From: Bdellovibrionales bacterium
GTDB lineage: Bacteria > Bdellovibrionota > Bdellovibrionia > Bdellovibrionales > UBA1609
Assembly (NCBI GenBank): GCA_022450595.1
Contig: JAKUPT010000020.1
Span: 1-44,940 of the forward strand
Length of the DNA stretch: 44,940 nucleotides
Direction: 5' to 3'
In this document: positions 25,037-30,537 of the stretch, in pieces
Layout of the letters: each line of letters begins with the position of its first letter
Numbering within the stretch: position 1 is the stretch's first letter
The notes under the pieces: generated by a model
What the model saw: only the letters and a program-made list of their open reading frames with translations
The model's database searches: none
What the model was told of the DNA's origin: nothing
Program-made: the position numbers and the translations under genes

Positions 25037-25915
25037 ATGTTTAAAAGTGTATTATTAGCGATAAGACCAAAAACCCTGACTGCTGCCATAGTGCCAATTA
25101 TGGTGGCAGCCAGTTTAGTCCAAATGCAAGAGCAAAAGCTTCAGTTGTGGATTGTGGCTTGTGCTCTTCTCTCAGCTATTTTTATTCAAATTGCGACAAA
25201 CTTTTTTAATGATGCCATAGATTTCAAAAAAGGTGCCGACACCGATCAGCGCATCGGTCCTCAACGTGTCACTCAAAGTGGATTAATGAGTTCTCAATCT
25301 GTATTTTGGTGGGCCATTGGCTTTTGTGTGCTGGCCTTATTTTTTGGGGTGCCCTTAGTTTATAAAGGAGGCTGGGTCATTGTAGGTATTGGACTGCTGT
25401 CTTTGTTTTTAGCCTACGGCTATACGGGCGGTCCTTTCCCTCTGGCCTATAAAGGGCTTGGTGATTTTTTTGTGATTCTATTTTTTGGTCTTATTGCTGT
25501 GGGAGGCGTTTACTACTTACTTGTTGAAAGTTGGAGTGTAGATGCATTAGTTGCCGGCCTCCAGTGCGGGTTTTTAGCAACCGTACTTATCGCGATAAAT
25601 AACTTAAGAGACGTTGAGCAAGATAAGCTGGTACATAAAAAAACTCTACCAGTACGCTTTGGAGTAAGCTTTGCAAAATTAGAAATTATTCTTTTAATCT
25701 CATTGTCTTATTTACTCAACCTATACTGGTGGTTTACTTATAAGTTGATTTGGGTGTCGCTACTTCCTCTTTTAACATTGCCCTTAGCTGTAGTTTTAAT
25801 TTATAAACTTTTAATGACAAAGCCCTCTAAAATATACAATCAGTTTTTAGCTCTCTCGGCCTTGTTACAAATAATTTTCTGTGGACTTCTTTCTATTGGG
25901 TTTTTATTACAATGA
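25037..25915 (+). CDS. menA: 1,4-dihydroxy-2-naphthoate polyprenyltransferase
   Basis: The 292-residue UbiA-superfamily membrane protein has about eight or nine helices and attaches the prenyl tail to DHNA. Both Mg-diphosphate motifs are present: N58-D59-x2-D62 with D68 (NFFNDAIDFKKGAD) and the second Asp-rich motif NNLRDVEQDKLVHKKTLPVRFG. The start MFKSVLLAIRPKTLTAAIVP is typical of MenA. It begins 4 bp after menB and overlaps menC by 4 bp. A second UbiA-like gene lies at 29473-30537. Confidence 0.95.
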   Translation: MFKSVLLAIRPKTLTAAIVPIMVAASLVQMQEQKLQLWIVACALLSAIFIQIATNFFNDAIDFKKGADTDQRIGPQRVTQSGLMSSQSVFWWAIGFCVLALFFGVPLVYKGGWVIVGIGLLSLFLAYGYTGGPFPLAYKGLGDFFVILFFGLIAVGGVYYLLVESWSVDALVAGLQCGFLATVLIAINNLRDVEQDKLVHKKTLPVRFGVSFAKLEIILLISLSYLLNLYWWFTYKLIWVSLLPLLTLPLAVVLIYKLLMTKPSKIYNQFLALSALLQIIFCGLLSIGFLLQ

Positions 25916-26784
25916 AACTCTTTATTGCCGAAAAAACACAAAAGTCTTTAGACAAAAAAATTCTTATTCTAAAGCTAGAAGACCAAAATGAAGCTGGTAT
26001 TGCCTCACTCACCAGTTGGCCTCATCTTGGGGATACATCTCTGGCAGATCTAAAATTAGACCTACTTTCTGATCAAAATCACAGTCTTGTTCAAAAATCC
26101 TTATATTTTGCTATGAAAGACTTAAAGCAAGAAAATTTAAAAAACATTACACTGCCTGAAAGTCATAAACTAATTCAAGATGAAAAATATTTAGCGACAA
26201 GCCCACCGTTCAATAAACTCAAATTAAAGCCCAAGCAGAATTTTGAAAAGCTTGCAGAAACACTAAACGCTCTAAATTTTAAAGCCAATAGCTTGCGGTT
26301 AGACTTTAATAATAAACTTTCATTTGATGAGTTTTATAGTTTTTTAAAATTATGTCACTCCAAAACCTTAGAGGCTTTTGATTTTATTGAAGATCCTTTT
26401 GCCTACGAAGAAAAACTATGGGCTCAAATCAAAGCTGACTTCCCAAATCTCTCTTTAGCTTTAGATCACAGTATTGAGTTTAATCAACCGTGTTTTGATT
26501 TTTATATTTGGAAGCCTGCCAAAAGCTTTTACCCGAACATATCTTGTAATATTGTTCCCACTCACTATATGTCCGATGAAATTGAATGGTATTGTTCACT
26601 TTGGGAGGCCTCTGAAAAAAAACTACTGAATAATATATGTGGTTTTGGGACTGAGCATTTATTAAATTTGGATTTTAAGGCTGGGGACATGACTGTGATT
26701 AAAAAACATTGGAATCAAAATTTAGATGATTTTTCTTGGCATTTACTGTCTGAAAATTTTCAACTGACTTTTAAACTTCCCTAA
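25912..26784 (+). CDS. menC: o-Succinylbenzoate synthase (divergent)
   Basis: The 290-residue protein is a divergent enolase-superfamily member. The catalytic set can be placed: K106-x-K108 (KLKPK), metal ligands D131 (SLRLDFN), E160 (FIEDPF) and D185 (LALDHS), and the second-side Lys K201 (IWKPAK). The order and approximate spacing match E. coli MenC (K131/K133, D161, E190, D213, K235). It dehydrates SHCHC to o-succinylbenzoate. It is the last gene of the men operon and overlaps the convergent menE by 42 bp. Confidence 0.88.
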   Translation: MKLFIAEKTQKSLDKKILILKLEDQNEAGIASLTSWPHLGDTSLADLKLDLLSDQNHSLVQKSLYFAMKDLKQENLKNITLPESHKLIQDEKYLATSPPFNKLKLKPKQNFEKLAETLNALNFKANSLRLDFNNKLSFDEFYSFLKLCHSKTLEAFDFIEDPFAYEEKLWAQIKADFPNLSLALDHSIEFNQPCFDFYIWKPAKSFYPNISCNIVPTHYMSDEIEWYCSLWEASEKKLLNNICGFGTEHLLNLDFKAGDMTVIKKHWNQNLDDFSWHLLSENFQLTFKLP

Positions 26785-27861
26785 TTCGGTGCGCTCTAAC
26801 AAGTTGACTCTATAGATACGCTGTATTTTTTCATAAGTTTTTAAATTTTTATTCAGATCATCAATAAGGTTTTGAATTTGTGAAAAATGATAGTCTTCAA
26901 AAAAAACCACTAAGTCATTTTCTCTTCTGGTGTTTTTCATGTTTTGAATCACAAATTTTCTGGGATCAAATTTTTTAGATTCAGCAAGGGATGACAGTTT
27001 TTTGTTTAATGAGGATTTATCCACTAAGTAGCCAAGGACTTTTACTCTATCTGAAATTCGTTGTTTAAAATTTAGATAGCTTTCCTTGAGCTCAACTTGG
27101 TCTTCTGTAGTGATGTAGTCATCTGCTTTTTGCACTTCAATATTATGATTTATAATTGTCACTTTGTAGGTGTATTTTGAGGGACCATCTAATAACAATA
27201 AAGAGTCTTTGTTGAGCTTGGCCTTAATATGGGCAAGTAGTTTTAGCTTCGGATACTCTTGATTGTCTAAGCTAGACAGTTCCGCGGTGGCCACTTGAGA
27301 GGACATTTCTGTCATGCCATAAGTGGTTAATAGTGGCCAGTTAAGCTGTCGGGCTTTTTTGTAAAGTTCAGGAGTTAAATGGCCTCCGCCTACAAAAACG
27401 GCACGCACGGTTTTTGGGCAACTCATTTTAGCTTGAACGATGTCATACACCTGTGTGGGCACCAAACTTATAAGAGAGGCTTGAGTAGACTGAATGTGTT
27501 GGTTGAAAGTCAATGGGCTCCAAGGTTTGATACTGCGATTGTAAACAACACTGCCAGAGAGGTGACTTCGAGCTAAAATACTTAAACCACCAATATGGTA
27601 AAGTGGCAGAGTATTGAGCCAAATGTCTTTTTCATTCACTTTTATAAACTGATTCACGGAATGAGCCGAAGCTAAGATGGCCTGTTTTTTTAGGCCAATC
27701 CATTTCTCATGATTTGATGTTGTGCCAGAAGTTTTAAGCCAGATTAGGCCAGGTTCATTAAAAATATCTTTTTGATGGTAGTCCTTTAACAAAGACTCGG
27801 CTGAAAGTATGTGGCTTTGATCACTGAGCCAGTCAATATCAAAACTGGTTGTGGGTTTCAT
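26743..27861 (-). CDS. menE: o-Succinylbenzoate-CoA ligase (short form)
   Basis: The 372-residue adenylate-forming enzyme activates o-succinylbenzoate to its CoA ester. The ATP loop is WLKTSGTTSNHEKWIGL, LPLYHIGGLSIL is the A4-like motif, TTYGMTEMSSQVATA is the A5 region and the terminal RTELGKFKSQLK contains the A10 Lys. It is shorter than the usual ~450-490 residues, mainly by a reduced N-terminal domain. It overlaps the thioesterase-fusion gene start by 4 bp and menC tail to tail by 42 bp. The minus-strand pair thus completes the pathway begun on the plus strand. Confidence 0.92.
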   Translation of the reverse strand: MKPTTSFDIDWLSDQSHILSAESLLKDYHQKDIFNEPGLIWLKTSGTTSNHEKWIGLKKQAILASAHSVNQFIKVNEKDIWLNTLPLYHIGGLSILARSHLSGSVVYNRSIKPWSPLTFNQHIQSTQASLISLVPTQVYDIVQAKMSCPKTVRAVFVGGGHLTPELYKKARQLNWPLLTTYGMTEMSSQVATAELSSLDNQEYPKLKLLAHIKAKLNKDSLLLLDGPSKYTYKVTIINHNIEVQKADDYITTEDQVELKESYLNFKQRISDRVKVLGYLVDKSSLNKKLSSLAESKKFDPRKFVIQNMKNTRRENDLVVFFEDYHFSQIQNLIDDLNKNLKTYEKIQRIYRVNLLERTELGKFKSQLKIFRQ

Positions 27862-28439
27862 ATTAGATATCTATTAAGTCTTTCATGGAAAATTTGTGGC
27901 ATTTTGGTTTTTTCAAGCTTTGCTTTATCAATAAAGGTGTGAACTGTTTTAACCACGGCATGAATCTCTTCAGAGTCATTGTGTATGTAGTCCATTTGAA
28001 AGCCAACAGTGGATTGTGAAAGCTTAAAGCAACAAATATGAATGGCATAAGTGTCACCAGCTTTGATGGGTCGTTTAAACTGAGTGTCGGCATGAACAAT
28101 GGGGGCGCCAATAAGTTTGTCATCAAACCAGTCTTCCCACTTTATCCCAATATGCTGAATAAACTCTTCCAAAGCTTGATGGGAGATTCTATATATATTC
28201 CCAAAAAATAATACCCCTGCTGAAACAGCCTCCACCAGTATACTTCTACGTTCTTTTACTAGATCTGAGATGCGGTTTAAAGCTTTTAAAGCTTTTTCTG
28301 CTTTCATCTGTTGATCTGCCTTAGAGTCTTCATCTAACCCATTGTTTAAGGACTCAATCATCCCCATTGCAATCATTAAAGGAGAAGAAATATCGTGAAT
28401 AAATGCTCGTTCTTTTTTTATATAGTCATCCGCTGCCAT
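27858..28439 (-). CDS. Histidine-kinase-like DHp hairpin fused to DHNA-CoA thioesterase-like domain
   Basis: The 193-residue protein has an AGGTG site before its ATG. Residues 8-65 look like the two-helix dimerisation/H-box domain of a histidine kinase: H15 in AFIHDISSPLMIAMGM, then a second helix KALKALNRISDLVKERR. No ATPase domain follows. Residues 66-193 are a 4HBT hotdog thioesterase most like cyanobacterial DHNA-CoA thioesterase (AGVLFFGNIYRISHQALEEF; APIVHADTQFKRPIKAGD). The family's catalytic Asp (D-x-D-x-A-G, second D) is V72 here, and the first D is E70 (EAVSAG). Its place ahead of menE suggests it removes CoA from DHNA-CoA, or senses or scaffolds that step. Confidence 0.8.
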   Translation of the reverse strand: MAADDYIKKERAFIHDISSPLMIAMGMIESLNNGLDEDSKADQQMKAEKALKALNRISDLVKERRSILVEAVSAGVLFFGNIYRISHQALEEFIQHIGIKWEDWFDDKLIGAPIVHADTQFKRPIKAGDTYAIHICCFKLSQSTVGFQMDYIHNDSEEIHAVVKTVHTFIDKAKLEKTKMPQIFHERLNRYLI

Positions 28440-28539: not shown

Positions 28540-29472
28540 ATGAATATCAAAATATACGACGCTCAAGATTTTCCATCCTATTTGCCAAAGCTCAATGCTT
28601 TGTACGATGACCTGTTTTCTCATGGCAAAGGCTTTAGAAGTAAACTGATTCAAAAAATATCGGATCATTTAAAACTAGAAAAAAAGCAGATTCATTTGCT
28701 TGCTCAAACCATTGAATTCATTCACAACGCCTCGCTTTTACATGACGACCTAGTGGATCGTTCTCACCTAAGGCGTAATAAAACAACAGCTTGGTTAAAG
28801 TACACCCCCGAGTATGCAGTACTGGCTGGTGACTACTTGTTAGCTCGTGTGATGGTGAATCTTTCTAGGTACGGCAATTTACAACTGCTTCAATACACGG
28901 CTGAGATGATCTCTGATTTGCTTGAAGGGGAGTGGATTCAAGATTCTTTGGTAAAAGATTGGGATGTTCAGCTTAAGCAGTTAGATGAGGTTCACAAACT
29001 TAAAACCGCCTCTTTGTTCAAGTGGTGTATGAGAGCCCCCTTTTTTGCAAAAGAAATTTATTCAGATTCCACTCATGATCTATTAGATCAGTTGGGGGCC
29101 ATATTAGGTTTATTATTTCAAAGATCAGATGATCTTTTAGATTTTGACATCAGAAATTATGAAAATAAGGCTGTATTGGGCGATTTAAAATCCGGCTATA
29201 TGAACTCTTTTGCCGTGTTTTTAACTCACGACTTAGACGCACCAGTCAAAACTCAATTCCGCGATTGCAAAAGTATTGAAGATGTTCAGAGTTTATTAGG
29301 AAAAGATTTTGTCGAAATGCGTTTGTCAGAATTTGATAAAGAAAATCAAAGATACATTGATCTGTACCATCACTTTTTAGAGCAGCTCAAACAAGAGGTA
29401 GGCTCTGAGTATCAAAGTGTTGTTGAACCACTGTCAAAATTGCCTGAACCTTTATATTGGCGAAAAGCATAA
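28540..29472 (+). CDS. Polyprenyl diphosphate synthase
   Basis: The 310-residue trans-prenyltransferase makes the isoprenoid tail for menaquinone. The first Asp-rich motif is DDLVD in ASLLHDDLVDRSHLRRN, with two basic residues after it. The second is DDLLD in QRSDDLLDF. FSHGKGFRSKL replaces the usual GGKRLRP region near the N-terminus. Chain length cannot be set by eye. The end abuts the UbiA-like gene (TAA then ATG). Confidence 0.93.
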   Translation: MNIKIYDAQDFPSYLPKLNALYDDLFSHGKGFRSKLIQKISDHLKLEKKQIHLLAQTIEFIHNASLLHDDLVDRSHLRRNKTTAWLKYTPEYAVLAGDYLLARVMVNLSRYGNLQLLQYTAEMISDLLEGEWIQDSLVKDWDVQLKQLDEVHKLKTASLFKWCMRAPFFAKEIYSDSTHDLLDQLGAILGLLFQRSDDLLDFDIRNYENKAVLGDLKSGYMNSFAVFLTHDLDAPVKTQFRDCKSIEDVQSLLGKDFVEMRLSEFDKENQRYIDLYHHFLEQLKQEVGSEYQSVVEPLSKLPEPLYWRKA

Positions 29473-30537
29473 ATGAAAACTCAAAATCAGTTTGTGACTC
29501 TATCTAAAAACAATAAAGATTTTACCGCTTATTTGACGGGAAGTTTTTCAGACCAAAAGCGTGCTATCCCCATTCATTCGTTTTCAGTTAATACACCGGT
29601 TGAAAAAGTCACTTTTGAGTTAAAAAAGCTTTCAGAAATAAACAGGCCCTCTTTTGTTTTTTTACTTCTGTGTTTGAGCCGCCCAAGATATTGGGTGTTT
29701 ACCTTAGGCCCATTAATGATCACCCTAGGACTCAATTATGCTTTGGGGTTACCTCTAAATTTTTATCATGTGATTTTAAGTTTTATCAGTTTAATTCTTT
29801 TAAACTTATCAGCCTTTTCTTTAAATGATTACTTTGATCACTTGGCCGGTGTGGATCGCATCAGTCAGACCTCCGGCAGCCAGGTTATTCAAAAAGCATG
29901 GCTTGCGGCCAGTCAGGTAAAAAATATTGCTTATATTTGTTTGTTTTTAACCCTCTTGTTTTCATTACCATTATTTGTGGCAGAGCCTTTGGTGAGTATT
30001 GTTATGGCCTTATTTGCCGCCTTTGCCTTATTTGCATTTTCTTACAAAGACTTGGGGCTTAAGTATAAAGGCATTGGAGAATTTATTGTTTTTTTAGCAC
30101 TAGGTCCTTTAATTGTAATTGGCTTAAGCTCAGTGATATCCAGTGAGGTTAGAATTGAGCATATAGGTGTGGGAAGCTGCCTGGGTTGGATTGCCATGAT
30201 TCATATGCAAATTAAAAATTGGATGCATATTATGCCCAATTCAAAAGCTGGAATTAAAACTTTTATAAGTCGATTGGGTTTTGATAAAGCGAAGTTGTAT
30301 TTATGTTTTCAGTTAATCATTCTTTGCGTTTTAAGTTTTGGTATATACTATTTGCCAATTTCAATAGAGGCAGCCAGTTTATTTTGTGGATCAGTTGTAG
30401 GAAGTAGTTTGTTTATGATCTATAAAATTTTAAAAATATACTCACCAGTGTCTTCACAACTTAAAAAAGTTTATAAGTACGCTATGAATTTAAATTGGTT
30501 TTACTGTTTGATATTTGCAGGAGTGTTGTTTTTTTGA
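29473..30537 (+). CDS. Second UbiA-like membrane protein with degenerate second motif
   Basis: The 354-residue protein has a polar N-terminal extension of about 60 residues and then roughly eight or nine helices with UbiA-family features. The first Mg-diphosphate motif is intact (N118-D119-x2-D122 in SLNDYFDHLAGVDR), followed by SGSQVIQKAWL as in MenA. Where MenA has the second Asp motif (NNLRDVEQDK), this protein reads MQIKNWMHIMPNSKAG, with no Asp. It is probably either a UbiA-fold enzyme with changed chemistry or an inactive partner of MenA. It abuts the polyprenyl synthase gene and overlaps rsmJ by 4 bp, so it is co-transcribed with its likely substrate supplier. Confidence 0.8.
   Translation: MKTQNQFVTLSKNNKDFTAYLTGSFSDQKRAIPIHSFSVNTPVEKVTFELKKLSEINRPSFVFLLLCLSRPRYWVFTLGPLMITLGLNYALGLPLNFYHVILSFISLILLNLSAFSLNDYFDHLAGVDRISQTSGSQVIQKAWLAASQVKNIAYICLFLTLLFSLPLFVAEPLVSIVMALFAAFALFAFSYKDLGLKYKGIGEFIVFLALGPLIVIGLSSVISSEVRIEHIGVGSCLGWIAMIHMQIKNWMHIMPNSKAGIKTFISRLGFDKAKLYLCFQLIILCVLSFGIYYLPISIEAASLFCGSVVGSSLFMIYKILKIYSPVSSQLKKVYKYAMNLNWFYCLIFAGVLFF

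Follow-up and report, generated by a model that had tools for sequence, protein, structure and literature searches.

A DHp-hotdog fusion in a Bdellovibrionales menaquinone locus, best explained by deletion between neighbouring genes and inversion of menE

How does a hairpin of the histidine-kinase type come to share one reading frame with a menaquinone-type thioesterase that has no catalytic Asp? A 193-aa protein poses this question in the window, the 44,940-nucleotide stretch of Bdellovibrionales DNA, from a relative of predatory bacteria, that was analysed as a whole. The odd architecture is best explained as a deletion fusion combined with an inversion of menE, rather than as an evolved DHp-thioesterase.

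One frame, two domains

The features on which the argument depends are these, with positions counted in the window.

27858..28439, minus strand: fused DHp-hotdog open reading frame (ORF), 193 aa, ATG start, a fusion absent from the relatives searched
28233..28439, minus strand: DHp-like half, residues 1-69, with the H-box FIHDISSPL (sub-threshold HisKA match at 0.0012, family alignment, hhalign)
28218..28239, minus strand: fusion junction, about residues 68-74 (L-V-E-A-V-S-A), placed by aligning the ORF with DHp and hotdog genes that stand apart in relatives
27861..28221, minus strand: hotdog half, residues 74-193, without native strand 1 and catalytic Asp (4HBT_2, Foldseek)
26743..27861, minus strand: menE (AMP-binding 5e-20; TIGR01923 1.1e-34), with a start codon (ATG) that overlaps the fused ORF's stop
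26743..26784, plus strand: menC 3' end, which shares these positions with the 3' end of the inverted menE (MenC alignment with relatives)
28540..29472, plus strand: polyprenyl diphosphate synthase, the divergent neighbour and a conserved landmark of the locus

The sequence-only reading had described a DHp-like hairpin without an ATPase domain, continuous with a hotdog of the DHNA-CoA thioesterase type and lying among menaquinone genes, and that description is sound. Pfam places HisKA on residues 15-62 (E 0.0012; 19.3 bits, short of the family cut-off of 26.9 bits) and 4HBT_2 on residues 78-187 (3.8e-12), while neither the sequence nor Pfam reveals an ATPase domain inside the ORF. The key residues of the DHp half are His15, Asp16, Ser19 and Pro20, and this half is 51% identical to a separate DHp gene of a relative, G108. 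For the hotdog half, the top matches in a sequence search of solved structures were 2hx5 (8.9e-7) and 4k00 (1.7e-6), the latter being Slr0204, the DHNA-CoA hydrolase of Synechocystis; a Foldseek search with the predicted structure of the fused protein put the same two entries on top. The staphylococcal model NF047424 MenI_Staph has a cut-off of 225 bits; the fused protein scores 26.3 bits, and the separate orthologues of the relatives also fail to reach the cut-off. The fused ORF lies in the menaquinone locus, and synteny together with similarity makes DHNA-CoA the putative substrate of the hotdog.

Separate genes, a lost segment and an inverted menE

We searched 141 genomes of the order for both halves, and the hotdog and DHp matches fall at separate places. 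At this locus they are separate neighbours in 12 related Bdellovibrionales genomes. The DHp gene directly adjoins the hotdog gene in ten of them (G094, G136, G101, G107, G127, G102, G100, G099, G115 and G114), with an overlap of exactly 4 nt in six (G107, G101, G094, G100, G136 and G115), and a receiver (REC) gene stands between the two in G108 and G109. G098 keeps DHp-REC and has no hotdog; the REC identity of these receivers is backed by Pfam matches of 1e-21 to 4e-23. The gene order in relatives is menD-menH-menB-menA-menC-menE / hotdog-DHp / polyprenyl synthase, and wherever the contig is long enough the pair sits between menE and the polyprenyl diphosphate synthase gene. The relatives' DHp gene is an ORF of 65-110 aa with the pattern F-[IL]-H-D-x-x-x-P; their hotdog proteins, 130-145 aa long, start about 15 residues ahead of a D-P-A-G motif and carry the Asp.

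An evolved DHp-thioesterase architecture is thus not supported by the domain pair itself, which related genomes encode as separate genes. Homologues beginning at the hotdog domain, which the sequence-only reading had named as a refuting outcome, are what the relatives show. Scans of the order, the phylum and GTDB gave no second fused DHp-hotdog ORF, and a conserved DHp-hotdog family was rejected since the fusion is limited to the window genome. A 307-aa open frame in G137 was rejected as a second fusion; its extra length comes from an open antisense run that precedes a normal hotdog start.

The same comparison accounts for the missing nucleophile. The catalytic column holds D in all 55 of the other, distinct hotdog sequences, and V occurs solely in the window gene. 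The sequence-only reading had placed Val at the nucleophile position, and the stretch does read E-A-V-S-A-G, but this is no point substitution, because the hotdog has lost its first ~16 residues and the terminal part of the DHp aligns in their place. By orthologue alignment, the native hotdog part begins at A74-G75, the counterparts of G107 residues 17-18; everything that precedes these in G107 (residues 1-16, including the first strand, F11 and the catalytic D15) is absent. What aligns to the missing N-terminus in the window is VKERRSILVEAVS; it comes from the end of the DHp gene, which has itself been cut short of its tail and stop. No alternative hotdog start is concealed in either of the other frames at the junction, as both contain stops. 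Where a catalytic residue seems to be missing, comparison with separate orthologues should come first.

The reading we prefer, at a probability of roughly 0.7, is an in-frame deletion that spanned the border of two adjacent menaquinone-locus genes and left the hotdog dead or crippled. The deletion would have taken the boundary between a small stand-alone DHp gene and a hotdog gene of the DHNA-CoA type, removing the DHp tail and stop along with the first ~16 residues of the hotdog, strand 1 and catalytic Asp among them. A receiver gene was perhaps lost in the same event, since some relatives are arranged DHp-REC-hotdog. The fusion is known from one genome, the single one to represent its genus, and most of the relatives are metagenome assemblies. 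In a concatenated tree of six locus proteins the window lies nearest G127 (DHp-hotdog) and G098 (DHp-REC) with support of 0.98, and all branches are long, so the tree does not date the fusion. Downstream of the junction the frame is intact and all 10 of 10 strictly invariant positions are retained, a lack of decay that would be expected alike if the event were recent, if it were an artefact or if function had been retained.

An artefact would mean that the fusion stems from an error in a metagenome-type assembly, as the menE inversion may too, and that the organism has two intact genes. The undecayed remainder of the hotdog, the lone genome in 156 contigs and the absence of the fusion from every other genome scanned all speak for such an error. 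We nevertheless regard it as unlikely: the join is in frame, menE is whole at both ends and overlaps the fused ORF by exactly ATGA, and the junctions have no long repeat that could explain a collapse.

The second rearrangement concerns menE. Wherever menE and the hotdog were found close together in a relative, the two have opposite orientations; in the window they share one direction, the TGA of the fused ORF sharing 4 nt with the menE ATG (ATGA). The statement that the fused gene starts the menE unit is therefore literally correct, but merely because menE is inverted here. As the inversion sets the window apart from all relatives examined, the operon-like, co-directional DHp-hotdog-menE unit is derived in this genome. 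Under the deletion account, the inversion would have been simultaneous or earlier, creating the ATGA-coupled arrangement. MenE and MenC are both complete, and the window MenC bears an extra short tail, SENFQLTFKLP, antisense to the end of menE, which we read as a probable scar of the inversion. Repeats that might drive an inversion or deletion were limited to imperfect ones of 11-22 nt, none of them located at the junctions, and a promoter scan gave nothing above chance. The ATGA overlap could couple translation of menE to the fused ORF, and the reading frame may persist mainly because of this coupling.

The locus holds two genes of the UbiA family, at 25037-25915 and 29473-30537; the latter adjoins the polyprenyl synthase and evolves fast. 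In G132 (L160:4080-6281), a single open frame of 733 aa appears to combine a polyprenyl diphosphate synthase with a UbiA-type prenyltransferase.

Fate of the hotdog half

In MenI of Staphylococcus aureus, strand 1 comprises residues 1-10, E31 is required for substrate binding and the D16A change lowers activity 300-fold; related enzymes are fully inactive once the Asp is lost (PMC8918352). The window hotdog is without equivalents of both the MenI Asp and strand 1. In the AlphaFold model, residues 60-65 of the fused protein, which belong to the DHp, replace strand 1 in a block with pLDDT of 60-71, against 93 for an intact control orthologue, and the supplied alignment biases the model at this strand. 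Most likely the hotdog half is inactive or crippled, with the DHp end standing in for strand 1.

It may instead be that the thioesterase still works through another residue or an activated water, with the DHp as a dimerisation add-on. Some activity does remain in S. aureus D16A (PMC8918352), and the fused protein keeps E91, H87 and every other strictly conserved position. Set against this are the loss of Asp and native strand 1, the presence of the Asp in every hotdog of the relatives and the complete inactivation of related enzymes by its removal, which together make continued catalysis quite improbable.

On the deletion account with a dead or strongly crippled hotdog, DHNA-CoA hydrolysis would be supplied by another thioesterase or would be non-essential. 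No second member of this DHNA-CoA thioesterase family was found in the window genome. This genome holds four other 4HBT genes. Three are YciA-like; the fourth is YbgC-like, keeps its ETD motif intact and encodes a possible substitute. The hotdog went undetected in ten genomes with menB at least 72% identical to that of the window (G096, G097, G098, G104, G106, G123-G126 and G131; some of these assemblies are incomplete), which implies that its loss is tolerated. Alone among six locus genes, the hotdog has a longer-than-average window branch (mean patristic distance 2.46 versus 2.15, sd 0.14), a weak sign of relaxed constraint.

The sequence-only reading had also suggested that the domain senses DHNA-CoA. 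In such a protein the hotdog would bind DHNA-CoA or DHNA uncleaved and signal through the DHp half. FapR, which uses a hotdog for sensing malonyl-CoA, is a precedent (PMC3536700), S. aureus MenD is under feedback by DHNA (PMC9835592), substrate-side conserved residues including E91 are retained, and relatives have a DHp-REC module at the same locus. A sensor is nonetheless very improbable here, because strand 1 and the first loop are replaced, the window locus has no receiver left and the fusion occurs in a single genome. Neither a sensor family nor DHNA-CoA sensing in particular finds support in these results.

A stand-alone DHp family and its receivers

Set free from the fusion, the DHp gene belongs to a family of its own. 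An alignment of 23 members has F13, H15, P20 and R65 invariant; the window reads HDISSP in the H-box, and the His is present in 23 of 23. In HisKA domains the kinase and phosphatase residues are an acidic one at H+1 and T/N at H+4 (PMC3510030), and the window DHp has D at H+1 and S at H+4. By hhalign the family matches HisKA of kinases from the phylum at 95.3% (P 2e-8), a value mildly biased by the choice of the seven comparison kinases by H-box pattern, against 0.2% for an HPt alignment. The family profile matched no solved DHp among solved structures, giving coiled-coil-type chance matches alone.

The family is widespread in Bdellovibrionota. At 1e-5, a phylum-wide search hit 157 of 369 genomes; among the matches listed, the majority lie in frames of 65-160 aa and some within full kinases. 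In several families the DHp adjoins REC or kinase genes, at L038, L039, L042, L044, L048-L051, L134-L136, L138-L140 and L151, and REC and a C-terminal DHp of this family share one open frame in G309 (L150:4586-5212). In the menaquinone locus, a single-domain receiver follows straight after the DHp at L031:4660-5064, L037:5476-5916 and L034:4279-4638 (G098). DHp-only proteins of another family, f12 (L124-L133 and L153-L155) occupy a conserved neighbourhood near genes for rpoZ-like and AMP-binding-like proteins and have no receiver neighbours.

We infer that the family's putative role is likely that of a stand-alone phosphotransfer hairpin, the adjacent or fused REC genes of relatives making phosphate transfer to a receiver likely. 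A tie between menaquinone synthesis and phospho-signalling had been suggested for the fused protein. It survives in modified form: where the DHp is a gene of its own, the three relatives with a receiver after it in this locus make the link plausible, and the fusion does not create it. In the window genome, the DHp half left by the deletion may still hold a dimer together, or relay phosphate between kinases and receivers that are unlinked to it. The most improbable of the readings that we weighed goes further, and takes the DHp-only proteins as a large phosphotransfer family, the DHp-receiver pair as built, in one lineage, into the menaquinone locus next to the DHNA-CoA thioesterase, and the window fusion, with its thioesterase inactivated, as a ligand-controlled phosphotransfer protein tuning menaquinone synthesis.

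The fusion illustrates one route to a striking two-domain protein, deletion between overlapping neighbour genes. The Bdellovibrionota family of DHp proteins without an ATPase domain, with its receivers inside the menaquinone locus, is a better lead than the fusion, and the link that it offers between a phosphorelay and respiratory quinone is directly testable in relatives with intact genes.

Among the known systems close to the hotdog half, the separate menaquinone-locus hotdogs of Bdellovibrionales are syntenic orthologues with identity of up to 38%, although these begin at the hotdog domain and all have the Asp. Slr0204-type enzymes (4k00; 2hx5) share with the window the hotdog fold, sequence similarity, the menaquinone locus and the Glu of the main helix, but they have the catalytic Asp and a native first strand and no 69-residue DHp half ahead. 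The HisKA/DHp domains of histidine kinases resemble the DHp half in the H-D-x-x-S-P-L H-box, the two-helix hairpin and the profile match, whereas they are accompanied by an ATPase domain and the window sequence scores below the Pfam cut-off. ChpT and Spo0B are, like the window DHp, kinase-like hairpins without autokinase ability, which they use for phosphate relay. Spo0B carries a C-terminal ATPase-like domain. ChpT does so too (PMC3433190), whereas the Bdellovibrionota DHp proteins, at 65-110 aa, consist of the hairpin alone.
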